Shown: one piece after another, positions 11,114-31,348 of the stretch
Layout of the letters: each line of letters begins with the position of its first letter
How positions within the stretch are numbered: position 1 is the first letter of the stretch
Position numbers and translations under genes: made by a program
Source of the DNA: Thiogranum longum
GTDB taxonomy: Bacteria > Pseudomonadota > Gammaproteobacteria > DSM-19610
Reading direction: 5' to 3'
Assembly (NCBI RefSeq): GCF_004339085.1
Contig: NZ_SMFX01000001.1
Coordinates: 1,315,227 to 1,379,226, forward strand
Length of the DNA: 64,000 nucleotides
The notes under the pieces: model-generated
The model's input: only the letters and a program-made list of their open reading frames with translations
Told to the model about the DNA's origin: nothing
The model's database searches: none

Positions 11114-11125
11114 CACGAAGTAACC

Positions 11126-11309: not shown

Positions 11310-11325
11310 CAGGCCAATAATTTCA

Positions 11326-11337: not shown

Positions 11338-11359
11338 GTTTTTTGAGATACCCGATATC

Positions 11360-14984: not shown

Positions 14985-15496
14985 ATAATATTCTGGAAAA
15001 TAGCCTTATATCATTGTTTCGTCTTGTGTGGCGGTTTGAGAACATATCTTTGGTGAGACGTGCATTTATTTATTTGAGATGGATAAAGTGGGGTGCTCGA
15101 CTTGGCTCAATCGGTAAGAAGTCCAAGATATGTCCTTATGTTGTAATCCGCGCACCAAAAAATGTTTTTATCGGTAGTGGTGTGGTAATTGCCGAGTTTG
15201 TGCATGTCTGGGGTGGGGGTGGTGTGATAATAGGTGATAACGTAATCATAGCATCTCATGTAGCAATTACATCCCAGACTCATGATATTCTCTCAAATAA
15301 TTATCGGGATAGCGCGGTTATGAGCAATGTCACAATCGAAAGCAATGTATGGATTGGTAGTGGTGTTACTGTGTTGCCCGGAGTGCGAATAGGAAGGAAT
15401 AGTATAGTTGGTGCGGGCGCAGTTGTGACAAGAGATGTACCTGAAAATGTAGTTGTTGCAGGTATACCAGCGAAGATTTTGCGAAAACTGAACTGA
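14981..15496 (+). CDS. Left-handed beta-helix acyltransferase (WbbJ/CysE-like)
   Basis: This 171-residue protein is dominated by hexapeptide repeats from about residue 48 onward (VFIGSGVVIAEFVHV, GVIIGDNVIIASHVAI, VWIGSGVTVLPGVRIG). It ends with the standard GAGAVVTRDVPENVVVAGIPA cap. TSQTHD carries the catalytic-type histidine of this acetyltransferase family. It most likely O-acetylates a sugar of the glycan repeat unit; the acceptor cannot be read from sequence. It overlaps the methyltransferase by four bases, so the two are coupled. Confidence 0.85.
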   Translation: MNNILENSLISLFRLVWRFENISLVRRAFIYLRWIKWGARLGSIGKKSKICPYVVIRAPKNVFIGSGVVIAEFVHVWGGGGVIIGDNVIIASHVAITSQTHDILSNNYRDSAVMSNVTIESNVWIGSGVTVLPGVRIGRNSIVGAGAVVTRDVPENVVVAGIPAKILRKLN

Positions 15497-15503
15497 TTTT
15501 ATC

Positions 15504-17000
15504 GTGTCTTTCTTTGATAACAGCTTCTGGGGTGCGGTATCAGCTGTGCTCCGAATGTCTCTGTCTGTATTCACAACCATATTGGCAATTCGACTGCTTG
15601 GCGATGAAGGCTATGGGTATGTAGTTTTGATAAGCACAGTGACCATGCTCTGGGTTATGCTTAATAATGGTTTTTATACTGTCCTGGTCAGACGAATAAT
15701 ATTCATCTGTGCCGATGACATTTCAGCGTTGCGCGAGATGATACTACTTGGGCTGGTTTATACTGGTCTTTCAGCGTTAATCTTTCTGTTTATTGCTTTG
15801 ACATCAGAAAATGAACTGATGGAGAAAGTGATACTGGGTTCCAGCAGCAATAAAACATCAGGCGAACTGTCTATAGCCTTCAAGTATGCATTAACGCTTA
15901 TAGTTGCCCGGTTGTTTGTTTTGTATTCTCTGGCATTGTTTGAAGGTGTGGGAAGATTTTCCACTGCCGCAAAAATACAGCTGACTTCTCCCGTGATCCT
16001 GTTGTTGGGACTATTGATTATGCCGCAATTACTTGAGGGCGGTCTTACAGTAAAAATGTACTTCCAGATATTCCTGGCATCCCTGGTATGTGAATTGCTG
16101 GTGTCGACTACTATGCTGCTTATTAGTGAGTGGCCTGCAGATACCGGAAAAACTAGTGTTTCAAGAATGGTGGGTCGGTTACCAGAACTTATTGGTGAAT
16201 CAATCAGGCTTCAGTTGTCGAATATATTTTCGATGTTTGTTGACCCCTTAAACAAGCTTGTAATTAACCATTTCATAGGCGTTTCACAGGTTACTTCATA
16301 TGAGCTTGTATCAAAAATAATTATCGCGGTTAGAGGGGTCTTTTCTGCCGCATTCAGAGCATTTCTCCAGCTTGCACCAGATAAAACGCTTGCTTCGGTT
16401 CAATACAAGAAGGTTATTATTTATATATTCTTGCCATCCATAATTCTTCACATGGTTGTGTTTTTACTGTTTTTATATGGAATAAACAGCGGTGCGCTGG
16501 GGGTTTCCCACCAATCTGTCCAGTTAATGTTGGTTATGCTGATCCCGAGTATTGCGATTGTTCTTGTTGCGCCCCTCTATTCACTTCTGATTGGCGCCGG
16601 AGACTATAAATATATACTTGTTCTGCACGCGCGTCTTGCAGTTCTTAACTCGATTGTTTCGGTTTTGTTGGTGCCGTTGATCGGAATTATTGGCGCCGGG
16701 ATAGGTGTCTCTGTCGCCACGATTTATAATGGTTTTTCAGTTTATAGGCGATTTGAGATGAAATACGGGAAATTGGGTGGTGTTTTTAATCTTGTGAAGC
16801 GGAGCGATAACAACGCCGTTGTCGTGTTCACTATATTTATTATTACCTGGCTTGCTCTTTTGCTGATACCACCGGAGGATTCATATTTGTACTTCTGCAT
16901 TGCAAGTCTGGGGGTCTTACTGTTGTTTTGGAGGCTATGGAGAGAGCCGTTAACATCCGGCGTGTTGAGGAAGATAAATATACTGGGTTCAAAACTATGA
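15504..17000 (+). CDS. wzx: Wzx-type lipid-linked oligosaccharide flippase
   Basis: This 498-residue, highly hydrophobic protein has about twelve to fourteen predicted transmembrane helices and the N-terminal pattern of the polysaccharide transporter family (SFWGAVSAVLRMSLSVFTTILAIRLLG...GYGYVVLISTV). Wzx proteins flip undecaprenyl-linked repeat units to the periplasmic side. The start is GTG 15504, seven bases after the acyltransferase stop. Only one such gene is present and a Wzy candidate follows in the same locus, which supports the assignment. Confidence 0.85.
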   Translation: MSFFDNSFWGAVSAVLRMSLSVFTTILAIRLLGDEGYGYVVLISTVTMLWVMLNNGFYTVLVRRIIFICADDISALREMILLGLVYTGLSALIFLFIALTSENELMEKVILGSSSNKTSGELSIAFKYALTLIVARLFVLYSLALFEGVGRFSTAAKIQLTSPVILLLGLLIMPQLLEGGLTVKMYFQIFLASLVCELLVSTTMLLISEWPADTGKTSVSRMVGRLPELIGESIRLQLSNIFSMFVDPLNKLVINHFIGVSQVTSYELVSKIIIAVRGVFSAAFRAFLQLAPDKTLASVQYKKVIIYIFLPSIILHMVVFLLFLYGINSGALGVSHQSVQLMLVMLIPSIAIVLVAPLYSLLIGAGDYKYILVLHARLAVLNSIVSVLLVPLIGIIGAGIGVSVATIYNGFSVYRRFEMKYGKLGGVFNLVKRSDNNAVVVFTIFIITWLALLLIPPEDSYLYFCIASLGVLLLFWRLWREPLTSGVLRKINILGSKL

Positions 17001-17034
17001 CATACAACATTTATGATTATTTGGTATCGGGCTG

Positions 17035-17904
17035 ATGAGGCTGGGTATCCTAAAGGAAAAACTGGTACGAAATTTCTGTCTTAAAACATGGAAGTTATGG
17101 GAGTACCTGGGCGTTCATCTTGTGCCTAACCACTTTTATTGGCCAATAGGTGATACCAGGAAACTGGAAGAGTTCGACTTCGATAAAAAATTTCCTATGG
17201 ATGGAGTTAATATCGATCTTGAATTGAGCCGAGAAATAGTTGAAAGAATAGGTTCCTATAGAGATGAATATGAGCCTATTCATGTAAATTGTGGATATGC
17301 GTCAAATGGAGATGGTTCGATACTGTATGGAATGATTCGTGATCTAAAGCCACGGAAAGTTATTGAAGTGGGTTCTGGATATTCTACGACTATCATAGAA
17401 CACGCAATGAAGAAAAATAATTGCGGTAAAATCGTATCTATAGAACCCTACCCAAAACCCGTTCTTCGGGACATAGTCAGCACAAGTGCAAATGTCGAGC
17501 TTATAGAAAGTAAAGTCGAGAATGTAGATCAAAAGATATTCCAGGATCTGGGTGAAGGAGATGTGCTGTTTATCGATTCATCGCATGTTGTGGATATTGG
17601 TAATGACGTTCACTACCTGTATTTACATCTTCTGCCTAAAATTCCCGTCGGTACAATTATCCATATTCATGATATCAGATACCCTTATGAGTACCCCAGA
17701 GAGTGGGTTCTGGGGGCCAAAAAGTTCTGGGCTGAGCAATATTTACTGCATATGTTTCTGGCTTTTAATGATAGTTTTGAAGTGCTTTTCGCTTCGAATT
17801 ATTATTTTCAGAACCACAAGGAGGATCTTGTAAGTGCATGCGTTGGTCTGGATATAAACTCAGATGGTTGGCCCGGTTCATTTTGGTTAAGGCGATGCAA
17901 GTAA
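17035..17904 (+). CDS. Class I SAM-dependent methyltransferase (Methyltransf_24-like)
   Basis: This 289-residue protein has the SAM motif KVIEVGSGYSTTIIEHAM near residue 108. An acidic motif follows (IVSIEPYPKP), then DVLFIDSSHVVDIGNDVHY and GTIIHIHDIRYPYEYPREW, a His/Asp-rich region typical of metal-assisted class I O-methyltransferases such as cephalosporin hydroxylase/TylF relatives. A role in O-methylating a sugar of the repeat unit is inferred from location. It is AT-rich like its neighbours and has no transmembrane segment. Confidence 0.75.
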   Translation: MRLGILKEKLVRNFCLKTWKLWEYLGVHLVPNHFYWPIGDTRKLEEFDFDKKFPMDGVNIDLELSREIVERIGSYRDEYEPIHVNCGYASNGDGSILYGMIRDLKPRKVIEVGSGYSTTIIEHAMKKNNCGKIVSIEPYPKPVLRDIVSTSANVELIESKVENVDQKIFQDLGEGDVLFIDSSHVVDIGNDVHYLYLHLLPKIPVGTIIHIHDIRYPYEYPREWVLGAKKFWAEQYLLHMFLAFNDSFEVLFASNYYFQNHKEDLVSACVGLDINSDGWPGSFWLRRCK

Positions 17905-17940
17905 AATGCCAGTAGTACTATATCTCGGGTGCTTTACAAT

Positions 17941-18732
17941 ATGAATATGCCTCTGGTTACCATAATCACCGTGACTAAGAATTCAGAGTCGTATTTGGAA
18001 GAGACCATTGAAAGTGTTATTACGCAATCATACCCTAATATTGAGTATCTGATTATTGATGGAAAATCTGATGATGGAACAGTCGATATCATAAAAAAAT
18101 ATGAGAAACACATTGCATACTGGTGCAGTGAGCCTGACGGGAGTATGTATCACGCTATAAACAAAGGCATACAACGTTCGAATGGCGATATCATCGCTGT
18201 TCTGAATTCCGATGACCGTTATTACAGCAATGAAGCAGTAGAGACAGCTGTAGATCTGTTAAGAAAAGGAGATGCTGTTGGTGTATACGGCAATATGCTG
18301 GTTGATTATGGGAAGAAGTTGCGTACCAGGCGAGTTTTTGATGTCAGCTTTGAAAGCTACCTCATGTCGATGAAGGGTACTTTTGTTCCGCATATCACTT
18401 TGTTTGTAAAGCGAAGTGTGATTAATGAGCTGAATGGTTATCAGGAAAAATACCGCTATGCGGCAGATTATGATTTCATTCTAAGGGTACTGAAAAATTA
18501 CAGGCTTCAGTTTATACCTGTGACACTTGCTGTTTTCCGAAGACATGCTTCGAGTATTACCGCATCGGGAAAGATAGCCCCTGAAAGAGATCTGGTGCTG
18601 CAGGACAACGGGTTGTACGAGTATTCAATATTTCGACGAAAGTTTACCTATTTCTGGGGCTGGGTCAAATATTATGCTCTTAATTCTTTAGGGCTTGTTA
18701 AAGATGTTTTGAGGGGCGAGCGTGCCGTTTAA
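17941..18732 (+). CDS. Family 2 glycosyltransferase
   Basis: This GT-A fold glycosyltransferase of about 263 residues begins PLVTIITVTKNSESYLEETI. It has the nucleotide-binding region LIIDGKSDDGTVDII and the DxD-type motif VLNSDDRYY, near residue 90. It resembles WcaE/WcaA-type transferases that add a sugar to an undecaprenyl-linked intermediate on the cytoplasmic face. ATG 17941 is preferred over GTG 17929; ATG 17947 is also possible. Donor and acceptor are unknown. Its stop codon lies inside the following gene. Confidence 0.85.
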   Translation: MNMPLVTIITVTKNSESYLEETIESVITQSYPNIEYLIIDGKSDDGTVDIIKKYEKHIAYWCSEPDGSMYHAINKGIQRSNGDIIAVLNSDDRYYSNEAVETAVDLLRKGDAVGVYGNMLVDYGKKLRTRRVFDVSFESYLMSMKGTFVPHITLFVKRSVINELNGYQEKYRYAADYDFILRVLKNYRLQFIPVTLAVFRRHASSITASGKIAPERDLVLQDNGLYEYSIFRRKFTYFWGWVKYYALNSLGLVKDVLRGERAV

Positions 18733-20068
18733 TGCGGATCTGGCAGAGAAGTTATTCAGGCGCTCAGGTGTAATCCTGATACAGCTTTATCTCGTATTCC
18801 TTGGATGGACCGATGCCTTTTCTGTAAGCTCATGGTTCCCCTTGCATGTGGTTCTGCTGACGATGGCGTCAATATTGTTTCTCCCATATATGCCGATTTT
18901 TCTCTCCGGTAAGAAATTATTATTCCCTGCTTCAGATTTGATGCTGGTATTCGCGTTACTTCTCTACTTCGGTGCTGCAATTACCAATTGGAACGACAAG
19001 ACACTGAACTATATTGCCGCGTATGGGTATACATTTATAATCGGTTACTGGGGCCTTAAAATACTCATGTCGAGCCTGGTTACCAGAGAGCAGATTCTTA
19101 ATGCAAATCTGGCCGGAATACTACTGGTATCTCTATATGCAGTTCTGGAAGTATCAATTGAGAGTATTAGTGGTGTAGATATTCAGAGTTATATTCCCAG
19201 ACATCGGGAAACGACGGCTACCTTTTTGCATGGAATGATACCTCGCGCCTACGGTATGGCGACCGAGCCAACAATACTTGTTATGTATATAAATACACTG
19301 GGCCCCTTGGCGTGGTGGCATATAGCCCGTATCTGCCCATATAAAAGAAGTGTAGTCATATTTGTAAGGGGCGCAATATTCCTGGCGTGGATAGCAACAT
19401 TCTCTGTTGGCGGTTATGTATTTATGCTACTGGCAATATCCATTGCATTTATAGCGCATTTTATAATATCCCAGATCAGGGATATACGTAATGCATCGAA
19501 TGTTTCTCGGTTTAAAGACAAGCGATACGCATTTAAAGCGGGTGTCAGTAAAAATACATTAGTATTCCTTCTTGCGATTATAGCGCTGCTGTCGTTGTCA
19601 CAGATAAGTGTGGTGAAGGACTATGCGTTTCTTGCCGCGCAGGCAATAACATCGAAAGCATCTTTAAGCGACAAAAATCCTTCAGCCAGTATAAGGAAGC
19701 ATCAGTGGTCTCGATCTGTTGAAACCATTATTAATACAAATGGAATGCCTGTTGGTCCCGGCAGCACTTCGTCAGCAGGTTCATCCAGTTCACTTAACTG
19801 GTACCTTTTTGTCGCACTGGAAGGTGGTGTATATTCCGCAATCGCATTTATTCTCTTCCTGGTATCCAACGGTTTTCTCATCATGATTTCTGATATTGAG
19901 GCGAAATACTACATATTGGTCGGATTTATAGCATCAGTGTTACATCTAACAATAGTTTCTACTTTCTACCACCCATTCCTGTGGGTTCTTATTGCGATAT
20001 TCCATGTATTTAGAATGAATTCTGCGAATCAGAAAAGATTAATCTACACGGCTGGTAACTCAGGATGA
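18722..20068 (+). CDS. wzy: Wzy-type O-antigen/exopolysaccharide polymerase
   Basis: This 448-residue integral membrane protein has about ten predicted helices and a periplasmic loop between roughly residues 300 and 360 (including SIRKHQWSRSVETIINTNG and VGPGSTSSAGSS). That layout and the lack of conserved catalytic signatures fit Wzy polymerases, which join flipped repeat units. The call rests on topology, on the neighbouring Wzx, Wzz and glycosyltransferases, and on the absence of another candidate. A GTG start at 18722 overlaps the previous gene by 11 bases. Confidence 0.75.
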   Translation: MPFNADLAEKLFRRSGVILIQLYLVFLGWTDAFSVSSWFPLHVVLLTMASILFLPYMPIFLSGKKLLFPASDLMLVFALLLYFGAAITNWNDKTLNYIAAYGYTFIIGYWGLKILMSSLVTREQILNANLAGILLVSLYAVLEVSIESISGVDIQSYIPRHRETTATFLHGMIPRAYGMATEPTILVMYINTLGPLAWWHIARICPYKRSVVIFVRGAIFLAWIATFSVGGYVFMLLAISIAFIAHFIISQIRDIRNASNVSRFKDKRYAFKAGVSKNTLVFLLAIIALLSLSQISVVKDYAFLAAQAITSKASLSDKNPSASIRKHQWSRSVETIINTNGMPVGPGSTSSAGSSSSLNWYLFVALEGGVYSAIAFILFLVSNGFLIMISDIEAKYYILVGFIASVLHLTIVSTFYHPFLWVLIAIFHVFRMNSANQKRLIYTAGNSG

Positions 20069-21156
20069 AGATTCTGGCTGTATTTAACGGAGTATCCGAG
20101 ACAAATATACCGTTTGAAAACTTTATGATGGTTTCCGATTTGGAGATTGATAAAGCCGTTTGCACTTTTAACGGCGTTATAATGAGCAGTGCATTGGGTG
20201 AACAAACGATTACAACGACAGAAGCACAAGCAGCAAACAAACCGGGAAATAAATTATCTGGACTTTTCGTTATCGCTAAATCAACGCTTGAATACCGTCC
20301 AGACATTATTCATGTACATCATGCATTATCAGGTTTTGTGGCATCGATTGTCGGCAAGGTGTTTCTCAGGAGCAAATTGATTGTAACTATTCATACTGAT
20401 TATCGACATCTTTATTGGCTTCATAAAGCATTTATCTGGCTGAATATGCGTATGGCGGATTATGTTGTTTGTAATTCTGCCAGTACAAAACAGTCAATAA
20501 AGAATGCAGTGCCGTCACAATACTGGCATAAAAATGTCACTGTAATTTACAATGGTGTTGACGCTTCAAGGATAATGTCCAGAACGGAGTGTTCTGATGG
20601 TATAACAGGGTCGCAACCCGTGAGAATGTTAATTATTGGTCGCTTGGTCAGCGCTAAGGGCCACGATGTTCTCCTGAAATCAATCAGTTTGTTGAAGGAG
20701 GGAGGGCTTGATGTATTCGTGGATATTATTGGTGACGGAATACTTAAGAACAGCCTCATGGATCTTGTTCGGGTTTACAAAATTGATTACAACGTAAGGT
20801 TCCTCGGACTGTTGGGACGGGATGATGTTTACGCTAGGCTGGCAGGTGCAGATTGTCTGATTGTTTCCTCGCGTTGGGAGGGGTTTTGTAATGCTATGGT
20901 TGAGGCAATGTTTTCTGGTGTGCCAGTCATTGCTTCAAATCTTGATGTGCTTGTTGAAGTTCTCGGAAAAGAGAATGGATTGTTTTTTGAGTCTGGTAAT
21001 GCAGATAGTCTGGCTGATAAAATCAGGTACATGACTAATAACTATAAGATCATCCTTGAAAGGGCCAGGCAAGCAAAGCAAAGGGCATTCGATTTGTATG
21101 AGTTAGAAAAGAGTTCGAGTGCCTACGCAAAAGTATATCGGAATGTTTCTAGTTGA
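20065..21156 (+). CDS. Family 4 glycosyltransferase (first copy)
   Basis: This 363-residue GT-B protein has an N-terminal Rossmann domain containing PDIIHVHHALSGFVASIVG. The C-terminal domain contains LLIIGRLVSAKGHDVLLK and the retaining E-x7-E motif, EGFCNAMVE, followed by AMFSGVPVIASN. It probably transfers a hexose from a nucleotide sugar during assembly of the repeat unit. It starts within the wzy stop (ATGA) and ends in the TGATG overlap with the next gene, so the block looks like one coupled operon. Confidence 0.88.
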   Translation: MKILAVFNGVSETNIPFENFMMVSDLEIDKAVCTFNGVIMSSALGEQTITTTEAQAANKPGNKLSGLFVIAKSTLEYRPDIIHVHHALSGFVASIVGKVFLRSKLIVTIHTDYRHLYWLHKAFIWLNMRMADYVVCNSASTKQSIKNAVPSQYWHKNVTVIYNGVDASRIMSRTECSDGITGSQPVRMLIIGRLVSAKGHDVLLKSISLLKEGGLDVFVDIIGDGILKNSLMDLVRVYKIDYNVRFLGLLGRDDVYARLAGADCLIVSSRWEGFCNAMVEAMFSGVPVIASNLDVLVEVLGKENGLFFESGNADSLADKIRYMTNNYKIILERARQAKQRAFDLYELEKSSSAYAKVYRNVSS

Positions 21157-21857
21157 TGGGTGAAATCATAGAAATTACGGGCATACCCGGTGTTGGTAAA
21201 ACAACCTTGGTGAATGAACTTTCAGGACTGTGTGGTGAGAACTGCTGTATTTATAATGACGCTATGATTCTGCCCTGGTCTGATAGCCTGTATTCATCAG
21301 AATTATTAACCAGGTTTGTTTGTGACGCCTTGCTTGTGTTTTATGGTTTTCGTAGTGGCTGGATGGGTCTTGCTCTCATGAAATATACGGGACGTGTCCT
21401 TTTTAACAGGAAAATGTCAATATGGTTCAAGCTCAGAGTTTTTGGAAATATTGTAAGGAAGTTAGGCAGAATACAGTATTGCAAGGAAAATCTTGGCAAT
21501 TTGCGTGTTTTTATTGACGAAGGCCTGGGACATGTACCCTTCAACCTTCAGGACTATCATGAGAACGCTGATATTACGTGCATAAGTGAATATTATAAAT
21601 ATGCCAAAAAGTTTACTGCGGATAGCAGGCTTATAGTGCTGGACGATGAAGGTGTTGATGTATTCGAAAGATTGCTTGATAGAGGGCACGCCAGGACATA
21701 CAACAGGTCAGTCGAATGGGCTAAAAAGTTTAATCTGATTAACAAGGAAGTTATAACGGCTATTAAACGTGAAGCAATATGTGCATTCAAGGACGTTCGA
21801 GTGATAAAAATCAACGATAATACTGCAAGTTATATTGCACAGGAAGCTGTCGGGTAA
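21156..21857 (+). CDS. P-loop NTPase/kinase-like protein of the polysaccharide locus
   Basis: This protein of about 233 residues starts with a Walker A motif, ITGIPGVGKTTLVNEL (P-loop residues 9-16). A possible Walker B-type segment is NLRVFIDEGLGHVPF and another acidic strand is SRLIVLDDEGVDVF, with R-rich RLLDRGHARTYNRS as a lid-like region. This is the general layout of small nucleoside/nucleotide kinases, but I cannot match it to a named family. It overlaps the GT4 gene (TGATG) and lies 5 bp before the thymidylate-kinase-like fusion, so the two may work together. Confidence 0.65.
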   Translation: MGEIIEITGIPGVGKTTLVNELSGLCGENCCIYNDAMILPWSDSLYSSELLTRFVCDALLVFYGFRSGWMGLALMKYTGRVLFNRKMSIWFKLRVFGNIVRKLGRIQYCKENLGNLRVFIDEGLGHVPFNLQDYHENADITCISEYYKYAKKFTADSRLIVLDDEGVDVFERLLDRGHARTYNRSVEWAKKFNLINKEVITAIKREAICAFKDVRVIKINDNTASYIAQEAVG

Positions 21858-21862
21858 GTCGT

Positions 21863-23305
21863 ATGTCGGGTATTTCAGAACATGGTTTGCATCTGTTTAA
21901 AGAGCTCGATAGAAATAACATTAGATACTGTCATTGGAAGAACAACCAAACAGTAGAAGAAGGACTTCGGGGTGAAGATGATCTGGACATCCTGGTCGCA
22001 CGGGATGATGCGCAGTCGTTCTTTCAGGTATTGCTGGCGTTTGGTTTTCATGAAGCCGAAAATCGATATATGAAGGTTCCTTTCGTTTACCATTACTATG
22101 GGCTTGATGAACATACCGGGGTAATTCTCCATATACATGTCTACTTAAAACTGTATACGGGTGAGAGCCACACGAAAAACTTCCATTTCCCATTTGAAAA
22201 ACAGTTGCTCGAAAGCAGCAATCAAAGAATATCCGGCTGTCCGGTTCCTTCATGGGAGTGGCAGTTGTTTATATACCTGGTCAGGTATTATCTGAAAATA
22301 TCATGTGTCATAGGTTTTATCCTGCTGTATTCACGCCAGTCTGAGTTCAAGCGTGAATATAAACGGATAATTGATGAGCTGGATGAAGTGGCCTGGGATG
22401 CTCTTGTTAGTAACATGCGTGCTCCATTCAGCGTTCAAACGATTGAATCATTACGTATGGCCTTTAACGAAAAAGGACCAAATATCAGGAGTGTTCTGCT
22501 GGGGATCAGTCTGAGGTGGAGATTGTTTGCCTGGCGAAGGAGAGGAGTGTTCAGGGATATGTCCTCCCGTTACTCGCAGATTCTCTATAGAGTCATCAAT
22601 AAATATTTACTACATCAAAAAAAGAGGTTGGTCAGGGGCGGGGCAGTGATTGCCATTACCGGGTTTGATGGAACAGGAAAAACAACCACATGCAGCGAGC
22701 TAGAGCATTGGTTTGGTAAGCAGTTCGATGTAAGGCTGGACCACTTCGGTCGCCCAAAAGCAAAACTGATTACATTGCCTTTACGTATTATGATTGGAAT
22801 GTACAGGTCATGGAAAAGGAAAAAGCACTTTACCAGCCCTGTCAGTAAGAAGGATGGAGTTATAGCTGCAATTCGATATTGTTCACTGGCCTTTGAAAGA
22901 TATTCGGTTCTTCGTCGTTCAGCCATGCTTAGAGACAAAGGATACGTCGTTATTCTGGATCGTTATCCCTCATTGACAACAGGCGGGATGGATAGTCCAC
23001 AGCTAAAAAGTACGGTGGAGACCGGATATATATACCGGTTCTTTGAGAGACTGGAGGGGTGGCTATACTCATCAATGCCCCAGGCAGATCTATTGCTTGT
23101 ACTCGAAGTTCCTGTAGAAACAGCATTGCTCAGGAATCAGAAAAGGATTAAAAAATTCAAGGAGTCAGACGATGAATTATTGGCAAGACATGTTGATAAT
23201 CAGGGTCTGGAATATGAAGCTAACGTAATCAAAACTATAGATGTGACGTCTTCGTTAGACGAAACTATGAAAGTGATCAAGTCTTCGGTCTGGTCTGCCC
23301 TGTAG
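21863..23305 (+). CDS. Nucleotidyltransferase-like / thymidylate-kinase-like fusion protein
   Basis: This 480-residue two-part protein has an N-terminal half (about 1-240) with GEDDLDILVARDD at residues 37-49, a pattern like the GS-x-D-x-D acidic pair of nucleotidyltransferases, followed by ILHIHVYLKL. The C-terminal half (about 258-480) is a thymidylate-kinase-like P-loop domain: ITGFDGTGKTTTCSEL with P-loop at 267-275, YVVILDRYPS (the DRY/DR motif of TMK) near 370, and a late ADLLLVLEVPVETALLRN strand with a lid region. Housekeeping Tmk proteins are about 210 residues and lack the N-terminal half. Its substrate is unknown; a phosphorylated sugar, lipid or nucleotide is possible. Confidence 0.65.
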   Translation: MSGISEHGLHLFKELDRNNIRYCHWKNNQTVEEGLRGEDDLDILVARDDAQSFFQVLLAFGFHEAENRYMKVPFVYHYYGLDEHTGVILHIHVYLKLYTGESHTKNFHFPFEKQLLESSNQRISGCPVPSWEWQLFIYLVRYYLKISCVIGFILLYSRQSEFKREYKRIIDELDEVAWDALVSNMRAPFSVQTIESLRMAFNEKGPNIRSVLLGISLRWRLFAWRRRGVFRDMSSRYSQILYRVINKYLLHQKKRLVRGGAVIAITGFDGTGKTTTCSELEHWFGKQFDVRLDHFGRPKAKLITLPLRIMIGMYRSWKRKKHFTSPVSKKDGVIAAIRYCSLAFERYSVLRRSAMLRDKGYVVILDRYPSLTTGGMDSPQLKSTVETGYIYRFFERLEGWLYSSMPQADLLLVLEVPVETALLRNQKRIKKFKESDDELLARHVDNQGLEYEANVIKTIDVTSSLDETMKVIKSSVWSAL

Positions 23306-23390
23306 AGGCTCACCGTAATATGCATCACCTGGTCATTTTATATATTTTGGGTAAAACTCCCGCATTTCATTTCGCGCGCATCATTCTGAC
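23306..23390. other. Short gap in the polysaccharide locus
   Basis: Eighty-five AT-rich bases separate the kinase-like fusion from the next glycosyltransferase, one of the few real gaps in the block. I see no convincing promoter, terminator or hairpin in it. Confidence 0.4.
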
Positions 23391-24521
23391 ATGAAAAAAC
23401 TATTGCTTGTTGTAACGGAAGACAAGTGGGTGCTAACTCATCGCATGCCATTAATAAGAGCGGCTATAGATCATGGTTTCAGTGTCTCTGTTGTTACCCG
23501 AATTACACAGTACAAGGAAGATATCGAAAAGCATGGGGTGGAAGTAATCCCTGTCTCGGTAACAAGAGGAGGTGTCAACCCATTCGATGAAATCAGAGCG
23601 ATAGTTGAGCTTTCCTCGATCTATAAACGTATAAAACCTGATCTTGTTCATCATATTGGAATTAAGAATATCCTCTATGGGAGTATAGCTGCTCGTATAT
23701 TAAAAGTGCCTGGTATCGTAAATGCATTTGCCGGGCTTGGTTACATTTACTCATCGGAGCATTGGAAAGCCAGATCGATCCGTCCTTTTCTGAATATGGT
23801 CCTGAGACTTCTCCATCGCGGATGCAAGATACGCGTCATTTTCCAGAATCCCGATGATCTAAATCTTATGTTGAATCTGGGTGTGGTAAGTTCTTCACAG
23901 GCAGTCCTCATACGAAGCTCAGGCGTGGACCTTGAAAGGTTCAGTCAGACATTAGAACCTCGTAACAATATGACTGCTGTTATGGCTGGCCGGTTGTTAT
24001 GGGATAAAGGTGTGGGAGTATTTGCCGAGGCGGGAAAACTATTAAACAACAGGAATGTCAACGTACGGCTCCAACTTGTAGGAGAACCCGACAGCCAAAA
24101 TCCATCTTCTGTGAACCAGAAACAGCTGGAGCAATGGCAGGCAGATGGTTATCTCGTATGGTCGGGCCATTCTGAGGATATGCCTGGTATATGGGCTAAT
24201 TCCAATATTGGTGTATTGCCATCATTCTATGGAGAGGGTGTGCCTAAAACCCTGTTAGAGGCCGGCGCATCCGGGCGACCTTTGATCGCAACAGATTCTC
24301 CTGGTTGCAGGGAAATTGTCAGGCATGACTTTAATGGAGTACTGATTCCGGAAAGAGACCCGGTTGCACTTGCAGATGCAATTGAGCGACTCGTAAATGA
24401 TCCTGAATTACGCAAAAGAATGGGAGATAACAGTCGAAAAATCGTGGAAGATGAATTTTCTGACAAACTGGTGGCATCCCAAACAATGGAGCTATATCGG
24501 GAGATTCTCTGTGATGCCTGA
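23391..24521 (+). CDS. Family 4 glycosyltransferase (second copy)
   Basis: This 376-residue GT-B glycosyltransferase resembles the PglA/WbpH-like group. The N-terminal domain begins KKLLLVVTEDKWVLTHRM and includes PDLVHHIGIKNILYGSIAAR and NAFAGLGYIYSS. The C-terminal domain carries the E-x7-E motif in GEGVPKTLLEAGASGRPLIA, followed by TDSPGCREIV. Members of this group often add the second sugar to undecaprenyl-PP-linked QuiNAc or di-N-acetyl sugars. That fits the WbpV-like, PglC-like and WbpM-like genes downstream, although the linkage is inferred. Confidence 0.87.
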   Translation: MKKLLLVVTEDKWVLTHRMPLIRAAIDHGFSVSVVTRITQYKEDIEKHGVEVIPVSVTRGGVNPFDEIRAIVELSSIYKRIKPDLVHHIGIKNILYGSIAARILKVPGIVNAFAGLGYIYSSEHWKARSIRPFLNMVLRLLHRGCKIRVIFQNPDDLNLMLNLGVVSSSQAVLIRSSGVDLERFSQTLEPRNNMTAVMAGRLLWDKGVGVFAEAGKLLNNRNVNVRLQLVGEPDSQNPSSVNQKQLEQWQADGYLVWSGHSEDMPGIWANSNIGVLPSFYGEGVPKTLLEAGASGRPLIATDSPGCREIVRHDFNGVLIPERDPVALADAIERLVNDPELRKRMGDNSRKIVEDEFSDKLVASQTMELYREILCDA

Positions 24522-24602
24522 GTATCCGGGATTGTCACTGTGCGCTGGGATCGCTTGTCCCTCTACTCCTGTGACTGGCAAATTCACCTCTCCTCTCATT
24601 AC

Positions 24603-25583
24603 ATGAACAATCAGCGAATTCTCGTTACCGGCTCGAATGGTTTTATTGGTAGTGCGTTGTCTGATGAATTGTGTAAACGCAACTATAAAGTGCGTAACGC
24701 AGTACGTGATGATTGCGCCAATAGTCACTTGTCAGGTGAACTGGTATATATTCATGACATAAATTCAGTCACAGACTGGGGTAGTGTGCTCAACGATGTG
24801 GATATTGTTGTCCATCTAATAGGGCGTGCACATATAATGGATGAAACATCTAATGATCCGCTGGAGGAATTTCGTACTGTTAATGTTGGCGCAACAGAGT
24901 CTATTGCACGCGCAGCCGCAGATAATGGTGTCAAAAGGTTTTTATATCTCAGTTCCATAGGTGTTTTAGGTAGTAGATCAGGCGAAAGCCCACTGACAGA
25001 GCAATCTCATTTTGCACCGCATAGCCCCTATGCAGTTTCCAAGTACGAGGCTGAGCAGGCACTACACCGTGTCACAAGCGAGACGGGTCTTGAAACGGTA
25101 ATTCTACGACCGCCACTGGTTTACGGTCCGGGCAATCCCGGTAACTTTCTTCGGTTGCTGCGCTTTGTCGCGAAAGGTATTCCACTCCCATTTTCCTCAA
25201 TTAACAATATCAGGAGCATGATTTATATAGACAATCTTGTGGACGCTATTATAGCCTGTATGTTTCACCCCAAAGCCGCAGGCCAAACATATCTGGTAAG
25301 TGATTCTGATAATGTTTCCACACCTCAGATGATACGCGAGCTTGCTGAATTGATGGGGCGAGCGCCACGCTTGTGGAGGCTGCCGCCAGCAATTCTGCGC
25401 TTATCGGGGAAAATTTCTGGCAAGTCATCCGAATTCGAGAGCCTGATAGGTGATTTGGCTGTTGACAACAGGAAGATCTGTGAGCAACTAGACTGGACTC
25501 CTCCATTCACCAGATATGAAGGATTTTCTGAGACTGTGAAGTGGTTTCTCGAATCAAACCATATCGATTCTTCCCTGATATAA
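24603..25583 (+). CDS. NAD-dependent sugar epimerase/reductase (WbpV-like)
   Basis: This 326-residue extended SDR protein begins with ILVTGSNGFIGSALSDEL, carries a catalytic S-Y-K set (SSIGVLGS... and SPYAVSKYEAE) and has VILRPPLVYGPGNPGNF in the middle. The neighbours are an initiating sugar transferase and a WbpM-type 4,6-dehydratase. The same trio occurs in O-antigen loci that start with N-acetyl-quinovosamine, where WbpV reduces UDP-4-keto-6-deoxy-GlcNAc. A C4-epimerase function remains possible. ATG 24603 was chosen because the frame from 24540 adds a non-SDR N terminus. Confidence 0.8.
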   Translation: MNNQRILVTGSNGFIGSALSDELCKRNYKVRNAVRDDCANSHLSGELVYIHDINSVTDWGSVLNDVDIVVHLIGRAHIMDETSNDPLEEFRTVNVGATESIARAAADNGVKRFLYLSSIGVLGSRSGESPLTEQSHFAPHSPYAVSKYEAEQALHRVTSETGLETVILRPPLVYGPGNPGNFLRLLRFVAKGIPLPFSSINNIRSMIYIDNLVDAIIACMFHPKAAGQTYLVSDSDNVSTPQMIRELAELMGRAPRLWRLPPAILRLSGKISGKSSEFESLIGDLAVDNRKICEQLDWTPPFTRYEGFSETVKWFLESNHIDSSLI

Positions 25584-25590: not shown

Positions 25591-26163
25591 ATGCGATATC
25601 CAGGAAAAAGAGTTTTTGATCTTGCTCTGGCAATATTTTCACTATTTTTTGCCATTCTACCAATGTTGATGATTGCTGTGCTTGTAAAAGCCACTTCTGC
25701 AGGCCCGGTCATTTATTGGTCTAAACGCGTGGGGCGGAATAACAGGCATTTCAAGATGCCCAAGTTTCGTACCATGCAGGTTGGCACTCCTGTACTTGCA
25801 ACACACTTGATAAGCAATCCGGAAAACCATGTAACCACAATAGGTAAGTTTCTTCGTCGTACCAGTCTGGATGAGTTACCACAACTTTGGTCCATTCTTG
25901 TTGGAGACATGAGTTTTGTTGGACCGAGACCGGCGTTATTCAATCAGGATGATTTAATAGCATTACGGACAAGCAAGGGCATTGATCAATTAGTGCCAGG
26001 TTTGACCGGATGGGCACAGATCAATGGCCGAGATGATCTGCCAATCCCCGAGAAAGTCATGCTTGATGCCGAATACCTTGCCAGGTTTTCGTTCAGACTT
26101 GATCTTAAGATACTGTTTCTGACTTTCTTTAACGTTATGCGCCGAAAGAATATTTCCCACTGA
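25591..26163 (+). CDS. Initiating phosphoglycosyl transferase (PglC-type sugar transferase)
   Basis: This 190-residue monotopic polyprenyl-phosphate sugar-1-phosphate transferase consists of an N-terminal membrane helix (FDLALAIFSLFFAILPMLMIAVLV) and the conserved catalytic core. The core contains RVGRNNRHFKMPKFRTM, the Asp-Glu dyad in RRTSLDELPQLWSIL, GDMSFVGPRPAL and PGLTGWAQINGRD. It lacks the N-terminal membrane region of WcaJ/WbaP, so it is the minimal PglC-like form. It should start the repeat unit on undecaprenyl phosphate, probably with the sugar made by its two neighbours. The gap after it (26164-26312) holds a TATAAT. Confidence 0.92.
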   Translation: MRYPGKRVFDLALAIFSLFFAILPMLMIAVLVKATSAGPVIYWSKRVGRNNRHFKMPKFRTMQVGTPVLATHLISNPENHVTTIGKFLRRTSLDELPQLWSILVGDMSFVGPRPALFNQDDLIALRTSKGIDQLVPGLTGWAQINGRDDLPIPEKVMLDAEYLARFSFRLDLKILFLTFFNVMRRKNISH

Positions 26164-26312: not shown

Positions 26313-28217
26313 ATGATAAAGAAGATAGACAATAAGCTGTTGGCGATTACCCATGATCTGGCAATGATTCCTGTTGCCTGGATAGGGGCGTATTGGCTCA
26401 GATTTAATCTGGGTTCGATACCTGAGACGTACCTGTCAGCAGCCTTTACCAGTTTGATTGTCGTGGTTCTCGTTCAAGGTATAGCGTTCAGATATTTTGG
26501 CCTGTATAGAGGCGTTTGGCGATTTGCTTCAATTCCTGACCTTATACGTATAAGCAAAGCGGTCCTGGTTGGAATGGCGTTTTCCGCAATAGTCATTTTT
26601 CTGATGACACGGATGGAAGGTGTACCAAGATCAGTTTTCCCTCTTTATGGCCTTTTATTGACGACACTACTTGGCAGTTCCCGCCTACTTGTGCGTTGGT
26701 CGAAGGACCATCATATATACAGGAAGGATGGCCAGCGCGTACTAATTGTCGGGGCAGGAAAGGCAGGTGAAATGCTTGTTCGTGATTTGTTACGAAGCCG
26801 TGATGAACTTTACTATGTGGTAGGTTTTGTCGATGACAGCATCAGAAAGCATGGCCAGGAGATTCATGGTGTACGCGTACTTGGGGCATGCGACGAAATT
26901 ACAGATTTCACTGAACGTTTGAATATTGATCTGATTGTCCTTGCATTGCCTTCAGCAACTTCTGCGCAGATGCGTCGTCTGGTCAGGTTGTGTGACAAAA
27001 CAGAGATTCCAGTCAGAACGTTGCCACCCATGGATCGCCTGATGTCCGGCCAGGTGATTCTCAATCAGCTGCGTGAAGTATCTATAGATGACTTGCTGGG
27101 CCGCGAACCCGTCAGACTTGACTGGCAAGCTATCAAGTCGGAACTACGTGGCAGGATAGTGCTGGTGTCTGGTTCAGGTGGTTCCATTGGGTCAGAACTT
27201 TGTCGTCAAATCGCCCGCCTGGAACCGTCCCGGTTAATTCTGCTGGATAACAGCGAATTCAATCTCTACTCCATTGAAATGGAAATGCAGAAACATTTTC
27301 CCGGCCTGGAAATAAACCGCTGCCTGAACGATGTCGTTGACCGGCCTGCCATTGAAAAGATTTTTGAGCAATTTCAGCCTGAAATCGTTTTTCATGCCGC
27401 CGCGTACAAACATGTTCCTATGCTGGAAGATCAAATCAGGGAAGCCGCCAGGAACAATGTGCTGGGTACCCGGGTGATGGCAGAAATGGCCGACCTCTAC
27501 GGTAGTGAAGCCTTCGTGATGATTTCCACTGACAAGGCCGTCAATCCCGCCAATGTCATGGGTACCAGCAAGCGGGCCGCGGAAATTTTTTGTCAGAACC
27601 TGAATCAGCGTTCTCGAACCCGTTTTGTCACTGTGCGATTTGGCAATGTCCTGGGGTCTGCCGGAAGCGTAGTTCCACTGTTTAAACAACAGATTGAGGC
27701 AGGTGGTCCGGTTACGGTGACTCATAGAGAAATAACTCGATATTTCATGACGATACCGGAAGCATGTCAACTGATACTTCAAGCCAGTATTATGGGCGCA
27801 GGCGGAGAAATATTTGTCCTGGATATGGGGGAGTCTGTCAAAATAACGTTCCTGGCAGAGCAAATGATTCGTTTGTCGGGTAAAGTTCCGGGTGAAGACA
27901 TCGACATAATCTATACAGGTCTGCGTCCAGGTGAAAAATTATACGAAGAACTGTTTCATGAAAAAGAGGCGTTGCAAAGCACGCCGCATGACAAGATTCT
28001 TCTGGCGCGCTACCGTGAATTTGACTGGCAGTGTTTAAGCGGGATATTGGATGGAATGGCAATCGCCTGTAATGATTGCAATGAAGATACATTAAGAAGT
28101 CTACTGGCCGAATTGGTGCCAGAGTGGAGCGGTTACGATGCCGGGGAGTCCCAGCCTGTTGATCTGGCCAAAGGGGATGCTTCCTCACCAGGGCCTGAAT
28201 CGCCGATATTGCACTAA
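26313..28217 (+). CDS. wbpM: UDP-N-acetylglucosamine 4,6-dehydratase, membrane type (WbpM-like)
   Basis: This 634-residue protein has four predicted N-terminal transmembrane helices (to about residue 130). A first Rossmann fold follows (RVLIVGAGKAGEMLVRDLL, near 147), then the catalytic SDR domain (VLVSGSGGSIGSELCRQI, near 285). The catalytic region contains STDKAVNPANVMGTSKRAAE with Met replacing the usual Tyr, the hallmark of the large WbpM/CapD/FlaA1 subgroup. It should convert UDP-GlcNAc to UDP-4-keto-6-deoxy-GlcNAc, the substrate for the WbpV-like gene. The last residues, after about 600, are polar and poorly conserved. Confidence 0.93.
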   Translation: MIKKIDNKLLAITHDLAMIPVAWIGAYWLRFNLGSIPETYLSAAFTSLIVVVLVQGIAFRYFGLYRGVWRFASIPDLIRISKAVLVGMAFSAIVIFLMTRMEGVPRSVFPLYGLLLTTLLGSSRLLVRWSKDHHIYRKDGQRVLIVGAGKAGEMLVRDLLRSRDELYYVVGFVDDSIRKHGQEIHGVRVLGACDEITDFTERLNIDLIVLALPSATSAQMRRLVRLCDKTEIPVRTLPPMDRLMSGQVILNQLREVSIDDLLGREPVRLDWQAIKSELRGRIVLVSGSGGSIGSELCRQIARLEPSRLILLDNSEFNLYSIEMEMQKHFPGLEINRCLNDVVDRPAIEKIFEQFQPEIVFHAAAYKHVPMLEDQIREAARNNVLGTRVMAEMADLYGSEAFVMISTDKAVNPANVMGTSKRAAEIFCQNLNQRSRTRFVTVRFGNVLGSAGSVVPLFKQQIEAGGPVTVTHREITRYFMTIPEACQLILQASIMGAGGEIFVLDMGESVKITFLAEQMIRLSGKVPGEDIDIIYTGLRPGEKLYEELFHEKEALQSTPHDKILLARYREFDWQCLSGILDGMAIACNDCNEDTLRSLLAELVPEWSGYDAGESQPVDLAKGDASSPGPESPILH

Positions 28218-28238: not shown

Positions 28239-29156
28239 ATGAGCAACAACAAGATAAGAAAAGCCGTCTTCCCCGTGGCGGGTCTGGGGACCCGCTTCCT
28301 TCCCGCCACCAAGGCCAATCCCAAGGAAATGTTGACCATCGTCGACAAGCCGTTGATCCAGTACGCGGCCGAAGAGGCCATTGCGGCGGGGATCGAGGAA
28401 CTGATCTTTGTGACCAGTAGCAGCAAGCGGGCCATTGAAGACCATTTTGACAAGAATTTCGAGATGGAAACCGAACTGGAACGCAAGGGTAAAACAAAGC
28501 TGCTCGAAATGGTGCGCAATGTTGTGCCTAAAGGCATTTCCTGTATTTATGTACGTCAGCCTGAGGCACTGGGGCTTGGCCATGCCGTGTTATGCGCAAG
28601 ATCTGTGGTCGGTAACGAGCCGTTTGCCGTCATTCTGGCGGATGATCTGATCGATGGTGGTGATAACCCCTGCATGGCTCAGATGGCGAAAACCTTTGAA
28701 TACAACCGTTGCAGTGTGCTGGGTGTTGAGCAGGTGCCGAAAGAAGAAACCGAGAAATACGGTATCGTCCAGTCTGACGAGGTCACTAAAGGACTTGGCC
28801 GTGTCAGCAGCATTATCGAGAAACCCAGTCCGGAAGATGCCCCGACCAATCTTGCTGTGGTTGGCCGTTACATCCTGACTCCACGAATCTTTAATCTTCT
28901 GGAGACTATACCGAAGGGTGCGGGTGGTGAAATCCAGTTGACCGATGCCATTGCTCAATTGCTCAAGGAAGAACAGGTGCTGGCCTACGAGTTCGAGGGC
29001 GAGCGCTTTGATTGCGGCAGCAAGCAGGGTTATTTGCAGGCGACGGTAGAATATGCCTTGAAGCACCCGGATTTGAGCGAGGAGTTCCGCGATTACCTCA
29101 GGAAGCGATGCGGTGGAGACGGCTGCGATATAGAGCCTCTGTTCAAACGCGCCTGA
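28239..29156 (+). CDS. galU: UTP-glucose-1-phosphate uridylyltransferase
   Basis: This 305-residue GalU-family protein makes UDP-glucose. The N-terminal signature is [19 protein letters not shown] at residues 8-26, with [20 protein letters not shown] following. Also visible are [34 protein letters not shown] and [15 protein letters not shown]-glucose feeds glycan synthesis here and, through GalE at 59382-60365, UDP-galactose. It sits 21 bp after wbpM and is followed by a hairpin terminator. Base composition is back to the level of the flanking chromosome. Confidence 0.96.
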
Positions 29157-29181
29157 TACCACAAGGCTCCCGTTTTACGCT

Positions 29182-29211
29182 GAACGCGCCCGTATGGGCG
29201 TGTTCTTGTTT
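29182..29211 (+). terminator. Probable terminator after galU
   Basis: GAACGCGCCC and GGGCGTGTTC form a ten-pair stem (one G-T) around the loop GTAT at 29182-29205. TTGTTTGTT follows. The T run is interrupted, so read-through into the export genes is likely. Confidence 0.6.
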
Positions 29212-29236
29212 GTTACACACACAAAAAACACATCCA

Positions 29237-31348
29237 ATGTCCCGTAACTGGCTGAATGTTCCGCTGTACCTGATGCTGGCGGTTATTGCCGTTTTCGCTT
29301 GCCCGGTTTCTGCCGAGCCCAGCACGACTGGCCAGACAGGTTTGATTAACATGCCGGACGCGCGTTTCGAAGAGGAGGGCACGTTTCGCCTGGGAACCAG
29401 CTACTTTCGACCCTATCTGCCGATCTGGAGCAGTATATCCTTGCTGCCGCGGCTTGAGCTGTCCGCTCGCTACACCGTCATCAGAGGGTTGTCGACCAGC
29501 CTGGGACAGGGGTTTGGTGACTACAAGGACAGGGCTTTCGATACCAAGTTACTGCTCTGGAAAGAGAACAAGTGGTTGCCTGATTTCGCGCTGGGCAGTC
29601 AGGACTTTACCGGCACCGGTGTATTCCGGGCCCGGTATGCGGTGGCGTCCAAACGTGTGGGTAATTCCGATTATACGCTGGGCTATGGTGACGACCGTAT
29701 CGATGGCGTATTTGGCGGCGTCCGCCACCGGTTCGACTGGAACAAAAACCTTTCTGTCGTCGTCGAATATGACGCCAATGATTATCGGAACGATCTTCGT
29801 GCATCGGAATCAGGGGTTGACCGACGTGACGGCGGTTGGACGTATGGTGTGGAATACAGGAAGGATTGGTACGGCGTACAGCTTGCCACAGATGGAGATG
29901 ATGTCGGTGGCAATGTCTATGTGACAGTGCCGCTCATGAAGCCGAGGTTTGTACCAAGGTTTCAGGAGCCGGCACCCTATCCCGTCAGCCAACCCGATGT
30001 AACCATTGATCAGTGGCACGCCGACACTGATGCCGCCGCCAGGCTGGCGCGGGAGCTTTATCGCCAGGAATATAAAAATATCCGTCTTGGATTTGATGGC
30101 CATACGCTGGTTGCGAGTTTGACCAATACACGTATATCCCGTATCGGCAGGGCTGTCGGCCGTGCTGCGCGTGTGATGTTGTCACTGGGTCCGATCGAGA
30201 CACAGGCGCTGGAAATCACCTATACCAGAAACGATATGCCGTTGTTGACCTACCGGTTCAGTGATACAAGCAAACTGCGGCGCTATTTCCAGGGGCTCTT
30301 GTCACGTGACCAACTGGATCGCTACCTGGAGATAACTTATACAGATCCTTCATTCAATACTCGATTGACAGCAAATGAAATCGACATTCCTGCAGCGGTT
30401 ATCGATGACCTTGACCTGAATGACGATGTGCAACGCTCTGACGAAGGTCATGTACTCAGCTACCGTTTTGAAAGCCGGGACCTGAGTGGTTTTCAGTTCG
30501 TGCCCTTCAATGCAGGTGTTATTTTTAACGACCGTAACGGTGTGGCGCGTTTCAACCTGTTTGCAAGTGCCAACTATACCCAGCAGCTCAGGCACGGTCT
30601 TTTCCTTGAAACGGGCGCAGAGCTCATCTGGTATGAAGATGTCAGCGAATCTTCACGCGGTTCCAACAACAGTACGCTGCCGCATGTGCGTTCTGATATC
30701 GCGCGCTACCTGCAAAGTAGTCGTCTCAAGCTGACCCGCCTGCTGGTGAACCAGTACTTCCAGCCACGAAGGCAGGTGTACGCCCGCCTGAGTGCAGGTA
30801 TCTATGAAATGATGTTCGCCGGTGCCGGCGGGCAGGTGTTGTACCTGCCGCAGCGGGGTAACTGGGCGGCAGACCTGTCGGTTGACTGGCTGCGCCAGCG
30901 TGACCCGGACGGGGGCTTTGCTTTTCGTGACTACAGTACGGTCACTGCACTGGGGGCGCTGCATTACCGCTTCCCGGTGTGGGGCGTGACGGCTACGGCC
31001 CGTGCGGGCCGCTTCCTGGCCAAAGACAAGGGTGTACGCTTTGAGCTGAAGCGGCGTTTCCGCTCGGGGGTTACCTTTGGCGCCTGGTACACGCGTACCG
31101 ATGGCAACGACATCACAAACCCGGGTAGTCCGGGTTCACCCTATTTCGACAAGGGCATCTTTATGTCGATCCCGCTTGACCCTCTGTTGACCCGCGATAC
31201 CCGGGCGCGCAGTGAATTCTCACTGGCGCCCTGGGCGCGGGACGTTGGACAAATGGTGGTTTCGCCCGGTGATCTGTACACTATAACGGAACGCGCCCTC
31301 CTGCTGGATGCGCCAGATGAAGACACCGCAAGCCAGTTGGGCCAGTGA
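29237..31348 (+). CDS. YjbH/GfcD-type outer membrane exopolysaccharide protein
   Basis: This 703-residue exported protein has a signal peptide (about residues 1-29, ending CPVSA). The N-terminal domain begins PSTTGQTGLINMPDARFEEEGTFRLGTSYFRP, the recognisable opening of the YjbH family. Alternating amphipathic strands through the rest suggest one or two beta-barrels. YjbH and GfcD accompany Wza-type channels in E. coli exopolysaccharide and group 4 capsule operons. ATG 29237 was chosen because upstream in-frame codons overlap galU in another frame and would precede the signal peptide. The next gene starts 17 bp after the stop. Confidence 0.85.
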   Translation: MSRNWLNVPLYLMLAVIAVFACPVSAEPSTTGQTGLINMPDARFEEEGTFRLGTSYFRPYLPIWSSISLLPRLELSARYTVIRGLSTSLGQGFGDYKDRAFDTKLLLWKENKWLPDFALGSQDFTGTGVFRARYAVASKRVGNSDYTLGYGDDRIDGVFGGVRHRFDWNKNLSVVVEYDANDYRNDLRASESGVDRRDGGWTYGVEYRKDWYGVQLATDGDDVGGNVYVTVPLMKPRFVPRFQEPAPYPVSQPDVTIDQWHADTDAAARLARELYRQEYKNIRLGFDGHTLVASLTNTRISRIGRAVGRAARVMLSLGPIETQALEITYTRNDMPLLTYRFSDTSKLRRYFQGLLSRDQLDRYLEITYTDPSFNTRLTANEIDIPAAVIDDLDLNDDVQRSDEGHVLSYRFESRDLSGFQFVPFNAGVIFNDRNGVARFNLFASANYTQQLRHGLFLETGAELIWYEDVSESSRGSNNSTLPHVRSDIARYLQSSRLKLTRLLVNQYFQPRRQVYARLSAGIYEMMFAGAGGQVLYLPQRGNWAADLSVDWLRQRDPDGGFAFRDYSTVTALGALHYRFPVWGVTATARAGRFLAKDKGVRFELKRRFRSGVTFGAWYTRTDGNDITNPGSPGSPYFDKGIFMSIPLDPLLTRDTRARSEFSLAPWARDVGQMVVSPGDLYTITERALLLDAPDEDTASQLGQ

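Follow-up and report, generated by a model that had tools for sequence, protein, structure and literature searches.

A nucleotidyltransferase–kinase fusion and its neighbouring kinase form a co-inherited module of bacterial polysaccharide loci

Introduction

Kinase activity and nucleotidyl transfer are combined in one polypeptide in FKP and HldE, and LicD/FKRP-type proteins, nucleotidyltransferase (NTase)-fold phosphotransferases of glycan loci, attach phospho-groups from CDP donors. NTases of the MNT type and P-loop kinases are also known from toxin-antitoxin systems. The arrangement that appears nearest, by analogy, to the one described here is the pair of an NTP_transf_5 protein and an HprK-related kinase A: an HprK-related kinase lies within 1.53 kb of NTP_transf_5 genes in 24 of 27 genomes, in 15 of them at 130 bp or less. 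In the cluster for the lasso peptide pseudomycoidin, genetic evidence indicates that PsmK phosphorylates a serine and that PsmN is needed to add a hexose to the phosphorylated residue (PMC9266682); PsmN is annotated as a nucleotidyltransferase, and its chemistry is described as unsettled in that review. For sphingolipid synthesis in E. coli, spt, an epimerase gene and yghO are listed (PMC9386255).

Here we analyze a stretch of 64,000 nucleotides of the Thiogranum longum genome (the window). A preliminary description of this DNA had singled out a 480-codon frame in a polysaccharide locus, with an NTase-like N-terminal half and a thymidylate-kinase-like (Tmk-like) C-terminal half, and had proposed a kinase acting on a phosphorylated sugar, a lipid carrier or a nucleotide-linked modification. 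A literature search returned no name for this module and no paper on thymidylate-kinase-like proteins in polysaccharide synthesis.

Results

A conserved fusion of two catalytic-type domains

The fusion gene (21863..23305, + strand) is a single ATG-initiated, uninterrupted frame of 480 codons, as the preliminary description had it, and the motifs GEDDLDILV, GFDGTGKTT and DRYP lie at residues 37-45, 267-275 and 366-369. Its product comprises an N-terminal NTase domain with a helical tail (aa 1-252, 21863..22618), marked by the hallmark Y-C-H-W-K-S/N-N, and a thymidylate-kinase-fold domain, denoted K2 (aa 258-480, 22634..23302). An AlphaFold2 model built with an alignment of 37 homologues has a mean pLDDT of 92.2 and a pTM of 0.90.

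These homologues share 21-40% identity and come from many phyla. Residues Y22, H24, K26, D40, D42, D82, H92, G100, K105, R141 and E165 are invariant across the alignment in the N-terminal half, as are G260, G267, G272, K273, G296, D366, R367, D377, E398 and R424 in the K2 half. The invariant positions include the two Asp residues (D40, D42; Asp at both in 37/37) of DLDILV (21980..21997), which would bind metal in the predicted NTase active site, and D366 and R367 of the K2 DRYP motif (22958..22969); G37 of GEDDLDILV is kept in 35 of the 37. Given this conservation in 37 distant homologues, the sequence motifs of the fusion are not attributable to chance.

Profile comparison and the catalytic motif support the assignment of the N-terminal half as a nucleotidyltransferase. 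Aligned with hhalign against 20 NTP_transf_5 proteins, the domain reaches a probability of 94.7% (E 6e-8, 133 columns), with DLDILV on DIDILV, DxD on DxD, consistent with the NTase-like half named in the preliminary description. The Pfam NTP_transf_5 model itself (PF14907) matches the window protein at E 0.0019 and 18.3 bits, under its gathering cut-off of 31.2 bits, and matches 11 of the 37 family members at E<=0.01. The third acidic residue of the NTP_transf_5 active site (hDhH) aligns with H90 of an HIH motif (H90-H92, 22130..22138); this position holds His in 34/37 homologues, Asp in 2/37 and Asn in 1/37, so the activity of the domain is not certain. A structural search with the whole fusion model (Foldseek/VIA) gave a match list filled by the kinase half, and the NTase-domain profile matched no chain among PDB sequences. 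LicD (PF04991) was absent from the Pfam matches at E<=0.01 across the 37 members. The window protein has only sub-cut-off NCBIfam and Pfam matches, and the scans of the 37 members found no family dedicated to the fusion.

K2 has the thymidylate kinase fold and different conserved residues

The modelled K2 domain has the dTMP kinase fold (VIA-align to 2plr: Z 16.8, rmsd 2.9, 184 residues, 20% identity), in agreement with the Tmk-like domain reported before, and its profile matches dTMP kinases at E 1e-11. It shares with housekeeping thymidylate kinases (PF02223/TIGR00041) the fold, the Walker A motif (GFDGTGKTT, residues 267-275, 22661..22687) and the DR motif. The resemblance, together with a weak similarity to TIGR00041, could point to a local dTMP kinase that raises dTDP or dTTP for dTDP-sugar synthesis. 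However, K2 scores 22 bits against TIGR00041, where the cut-off is 83.25, and Pfam Thymidylate_kin (PF02223) matches the fusion at E 1.6e-5 with 25.2 bits against a cut-off of 27. The dTMP-binding motifs RxPGG and SxxAYQ, which are found in E. coli Tmk and in the Tmk of T. longum itself (TREPGGT, AYQGG), are missing from K2 in 37/37 homologues; in their stead K2 has the invariant residues D377, E398 and G296, with D377 (MDS/MDG, 22991..22993; Asp in 37/37) occupying the place of S-x-x-A-Y-Q. An ordinary tmk lies elsewhere in the genome at C1:1573920 (179.8 bits against the same cut-off of 83.25), with both dTMP-kinase motifs, and no dTDP-sugar gene was seen in the locus. The missing motifs, the low score and the separate tmk lead us to reject a local dTMP kinase, the least probable of the readings considered and a negligible one. 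On its motifs, K2 is not a thymidylate kinase, and the earlier view that the gene is not the housekeeping enzyme holds.

K1, a second kinase, travels with the fusion

Directly upstream of the fusion we identified a second P-loop kinase, K1 (21156..21857, + strand, 233 aa from ATG), from its AlphaFold2 model and its adjacency. The ORF list places its start at a TTG (21153); the ATG at 21156 shares bases with the stop codon of the glycosyltransferase gene before it (TGATG), and K1 ends 5 nt ahead of the fusion start. The model (pLDDT 87.8) has a Tmk/NMP-kinase fold, its top structural matches being thymidylate kinases (Z 13.8, 12% identity), and the K1 profile is similar to PSTK, adenylate kinases and deoxynucleoside kinases. 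In a profile comparison K1 and K2 have the P-loop alone in common.

We assessed linkage in 42 loci that carry the fusion, made up of 41 loci from a profile scan of genome contigs, less one truncated locus (L063), plus the window and a Chelatococcus plasmid. K1 adjoins or is fused to NTase-K2 in 33 of the 42: in 27 it stands beside the fusion as a gene of its own, in four (L071, L081, L085, L086) it follows K2 within one protein, and in two, both from Chloroflexi (L064, L080), it is part of a K1-APH fusion gene next to NTase-K2. In one clade NTase-K2-K1 is a single protein of 690 aa, and a further triple fusion of 695 aa occurs in another genome (L022 in G351). About one fifth of the fusion loci have no adjacent K1. 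Most of these belong to a single group, largely of Alphaproteobacteria; within it, Mesorhizobium carries a gene for an APH-like kinase downstream. APH kinases occur as fusions with K1 or, in lineages where K1 is scarce, as neighbours.

Of 59 adjacent slots, 26 hold a K1-like pattern, compared with 1 of the 435 slots elsewhere (Fisher p 7e-26). Distances between K1 sequences and between fusion sequences correlate with r 0.91, no permutation exceeding 0.30, a correlation that co-inheritance alone would also yield. On the tree, the arrangements with K1 upstream, K1 downstream and K1 fused are clade-specific, and the adjacency has therefore outlived rearrangement. The three catalytic-type domains encoded by 21156-23305 (NTase, K2 and K1) are inherited together, and the functional unit is the fusion together with the adjacent K1 rather than the fusion alone. 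The preliminary description was right that the fusion is real and had missed this partner, which is adjacent or fused in those 33 of 42 loci.

Several loci show further arrangements. In Chloroflexota, K1 and an APH-type phosphotransferase are fused directly behind NTase-K2 (L064:3007-4932, L080:11491-13320). At L048 a single locus contains the module twice, as diverged copies within about 12 kb (3203-5278 on the − strand and 9980-11416 on the + strand), and Methylobacter marinus likewise carries two diverged copies (L056, L087) on one contig, within about 12 kb in one locus. In Sulfurovum, one of two nearby copies is triple-fused.

The three domains are predicted to be soluble, apart from a questionable hydrophobic segment of the fusion protein. 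This prediction and the kinship of K1 with small-molecule alcohol or NMP kinases (PSTK, dNK, AK) are consistent with activation of a soluble precursor, in which a free sugar, polyol or acid would be phosphorylated by K1, K2 or both and then coupled to a nucleotide by the NTase, giving an NDP-activated building block for use by another enzyme, a glycosyl- or phosphotransferase. A fused kinase and NTase is also the classic architecture of such activation, in the manner of FKP and HldE. Two considerations weigh against it: the nearest relatives of the NTase (NTP_transf_5, Lnu-like) modify acceptors rather than acting as sugar-1-phosphate pyrophosphorylases, and a single activation would seem to call for fewer than two or three kinases. 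We regard precursor activation as a possible reading, though less likely than not.

The module belongs to polysaccharide loci

The window locus has the components of a polymer pathway, in keeping with the polysaccharide locus named in the preliminary description. Wzx- and Wzy-like proteins, GT4 and GT2 glycosyltransferases and an initiating transferase surround the fusion, all on the + strand. A Wzx-like protein with 12 predicted TM segments (15504..17000) and a Wzy-like protein with nine (18722..20068) are assigned by hydropathy alone and have no Pfam match. Between them lies a family-2 glycosyltransferase (17929..18732; Pfam Glycos_transf_2, E 4.7e-25). One GT4 glycosyltransferase precedes K1 (20065..21156; Pfam E 1e-29), its stop overlapping the K1 start, and another follows the fusion (23391..24521; Pfam E 9e-29). 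Further downstream are an NAD-dependent sugar epimerase/dehydratase (24540..25583; Pfam Epimerase, E 9e-38), a small initiating phosphoglycosyl transferase of the WbaP/WcaJ C-terminal type (25591..26163; NCBIfam EPS_sugtrans, E 2e-64), a PseB/FlaA1-like UDP-HexNAc 4,6-dehydratase (26313..28217; NCBIfam PseB, E 2e-46) and GalU (28239..29156; NCBIfam galU, 387 bits, over the cut-off). A GMP-PMI enzyme is also encoded; the nucleotide-sugar enzymes identified in the locus are GalU (UDP) and GMP-PMI (GDP), and no dTDP-sugar gene was seen.

The locus core (14019-25583) has a GC content of 42.5%, against about 56.5% in both flanks, which suggests horizontal acquisition. Promoter and terminator scans gave results at or under shuffled background. 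The export part of the locus contains an ORF of 778 aa (29012-31348) that has no NCBIfam match; as called, the ORF overlaps galU at its beginning, and translation therefore probably starts further downstream. A second glycan locus of the same genome (C1:2819313-2822399, L003; wider region L026:4570-5918), with a GT4, a GT2 and a sulfotransferase-like protein, has an unfused Tmk-like kinase of 216 aa directly beside a nucleotidyltransferase of 233 aa (GSLSKGCYRETSDIDI), the N-terminal half of which is hydrophobic.

The family is patchy in distribution. It occurs in more than ten phyla, including Pseudomonadota, Nitrospirota, Campylobacterota, Chloroflexota, Calditrichota, Planctomycetota, Acidobacteriota, Cyanobacteriota, Actinomycetota, Bacteroidota, Bacillota and Thermodesulfobacteriota, yet the fusion was found in 0 of 16 other genomes sampled from the same genus, and only a handful of full-length fusions were found among 398 genomes sampled from the same phylum. 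The fusion is thus a widespread family and is not confined to this locus. Culturable, non-pathogenic carriers of the module include Methylobacter marinus A45, Mesorhizobium and Nostoc/Calothrix. The scan of genome contigs used a three-sequence alignment as the query, and the sample of loci is therefore biased to the YCHWK subgroup. The nearest sequence to the window fusion comes from Nitrospirota (40% identity).

In a neighbourhood survey of the kind that had been proposed for this fusion, glycosyltransferases lie within 10 kb in 33 of 43 loci, Wzz/BY-kinase proteins in 21 (Pfam-checked on a representative), initiating sugar transferases in 20 and Wza-type proteins in 13. The module thus belongs to polysaccharide loci. 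The frequency of BY-kinases among the neighbours, and the precedent of pseudomycoidin, where an HprK-type kinase and NTP_transf_5 pair acts on a peptide (PMC9266682), would fit a regulatory pair in which kinase and NTase together target a protein (a chain-length regulator, an initiating transferase or a small peptide) and so control polymer output. We consider this improbable: the kinase fold is of the small-molecule NMP-kinase type, and no conserved peptide-substrate gene was seen beside the module.

A toxin-antitoxin or anti-phage defence module, built from the NTase and a zeta-like kinase, has in its favour that both protein types occur in toxin-antitoxin systems. It is very improbable, since PADLOC models were matched by weak P-loop stretches only, the genes are translationally coupled within a polysaccharide operon, the polysaccharide context recurs across phyla, and no phage relative was found. 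For the same want of a phage relative, phage origin was set aside. Carriage as plasmid cargo was also rejected, the one full-length plasmid homologue being on a Chelatococcus megaplasmid, where it lies within a polysaccharide locus.

K2 is related to YghR, YghS and YghT of E. coli

K2 aligns over its full length with the uncharacterised ATP-binding proteins YghR, YghS and YghT of E. coli (hhalign probability 99.7-99.8), and by this comparison K2 is the same domain. In K-12 (L043) yghO is followed by an IS5LO copy and then yghQ-R-S-T, and spt and its neighbours are absent. In another E. coli genome (L119, FDAARGOS_144) the order is yghO, a fatty acyl-AMP ligase, an NAD-dependent epimerase-like SDR, ACP, spt, lptG, lptF, a YtfJ family gene, a gene of unknown type, a flippase-type protein, yghR, yghS and yghT. 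The laboratory strain BL21 retains the spt locus, under the locus tags ECD_02850-02854 (PMC9386255). A version of the locus on a Klebsiella plasmid scores 613 bits for serine palmitoyltransferase. As spt is present in 4077 of 5426 complete E. coli genomes, yghR, yghS and yghT are tied to the sphingolipid locus of about three quarters of them.

A literature search found no reported role for YghR, YghS or YghT; they stand out as candidates for the head-group kinases that the E. coli sphingolipid pathway still lacks. Free-standing YghR/S/T adjoin a flippase, LptF and LptG in a sphingolipid locus, which makes lipid-linked or lipid-destined acceptors the most likely substrates of K2, though the genomic context could mean common ancestry without a common substrate. 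The occurrence of these proteins in triplicate, without any NTase of that kind, also speaks against activation of a soluble precursor.

Discussion

The K1 and NTase-K2 unit is previously undescribed, although kinase and NTase pairs in glycan and peptide clusters are already known, and there is a real chance that it carries a new enzymatic activity. Its probable role is to produce a phosphate-linked decoration of cell-surface polysaccharides, or to attach one, and not to supply DNA precursors. The class of function proposed in the preliminary description, a kinase for a phosphorylated sugar, a lipid carrier or a nucleotide-linked modification, remains the best one, and any particular substrate is a candidate. 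The two findings that the description had named as counting against it did not appear: the N-terminal half scores as an NTase by profile, and tmk is found elsewhere in the genome.

We tentatively favor a route, its chance somewhat short of even, in which the module installs a phosphate-containing substituent on the glycan of its locus. With ATP as donor, one or both kinases would phosphorylate a hydroxyl group, either in a precursor (a sugar or a small polyol) or in the undecaprenyl-linked repeat unit, and the fused NTase domain would then react with the phosphate so made. Alternatively, the NTase may draw a phospho-group from an NDP donor and transfer it, in the manner of LicD-type enzymes of the NTase fold. 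The outcome would be a phosphodiester-linked decoration, added before Wzx export. Activation of a precursor to an NDP-compound is the chief rival to this substituent-installing route; regulation and the supply of dTDP are the less probable readings.

A bolder and doubtful version would have the module act as a three-step phospho-decoration machine for surface glycans, in which an alcohol kinase, a phosphate kinase and an NTase, carried on one or two proteins, work on lipid-linked intermediates, while the K2-class proteins YghR/S/T of E. coli would phosphorylate the head-group of ceramide. Were the K2 class to act on both kinds of lipid, it would constitute a new family of Tmk-fold lipid-linked-glycan kinases. 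If the substituent-installing route is right, a conserved unnamed module would account for a class of phosphate-containing surface-polysaccharide decorations in more than ten phyla. For annotation, the pattern Y-C-H-W-K ... GxxDLDxLV ... GxDGxGKS ... DRYP ... MDG may serve as a rule against the label 'thymidylate kinase'.

Compared with known systems, the module joins familiar elements in a different way. FKP and HldE differ from the fusion in both folds, their kinases being of the GHMP or PfkB type and their transferases GT-A-like or cytidylyltransferases. LicD/FKRP-type proteins place an NTase fold in glycan loci, as the module does, but LicD is not among the Pfam matches of the 37 members. 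YghR, YghS and YghT, like the module, have a flippase-type protein close by, in their case within a locus for an envelope glycolipid; they are free-standing, as three paralogues in a row with neither NTase domain nor K1, whereas K2 is fused to the NTase, and their locus makes a sphingolipid (spt, FAAL, ACP, LptF/G), whereas the window module lies in a polymer locus of the Wzx/Wzy type. PsmK and PsmN, a kinase and an NTP_transf-like protein acting in succession on one acceptor, are likened to the module by role; their substrate is a peptide and their kinase is of the HPr type, a different family from the Tmk-fold kinases here. The NTP_transf_5 and HprK-related kinase A pairs of exopolysaccharide/XrtA-type loci share with the module an NTase of a related type, a dedicated neighbouring kinase and a setting in glycan-type clusters, but there the kinase is an HPr-kinase homologue encoded by a separate gene, whereas the module has Tmk-fold kinases and an NTase fused to K2, and the NTP_transf_5 proteins carry Asp where the fusion carries His (H90). 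In T. longum, TIGR04352 has a single weak match (E 1.3e-5, C1:785955), outside the window, and the partner kinases have the Tmk fold. Given the proximity of an HprK-related kinase to NTP_transf_5 in 24 of 27 genomes, the pairing of an NTase with a kinase of its own is a recurring arrangement, realized here with Tmk-fold kinases.
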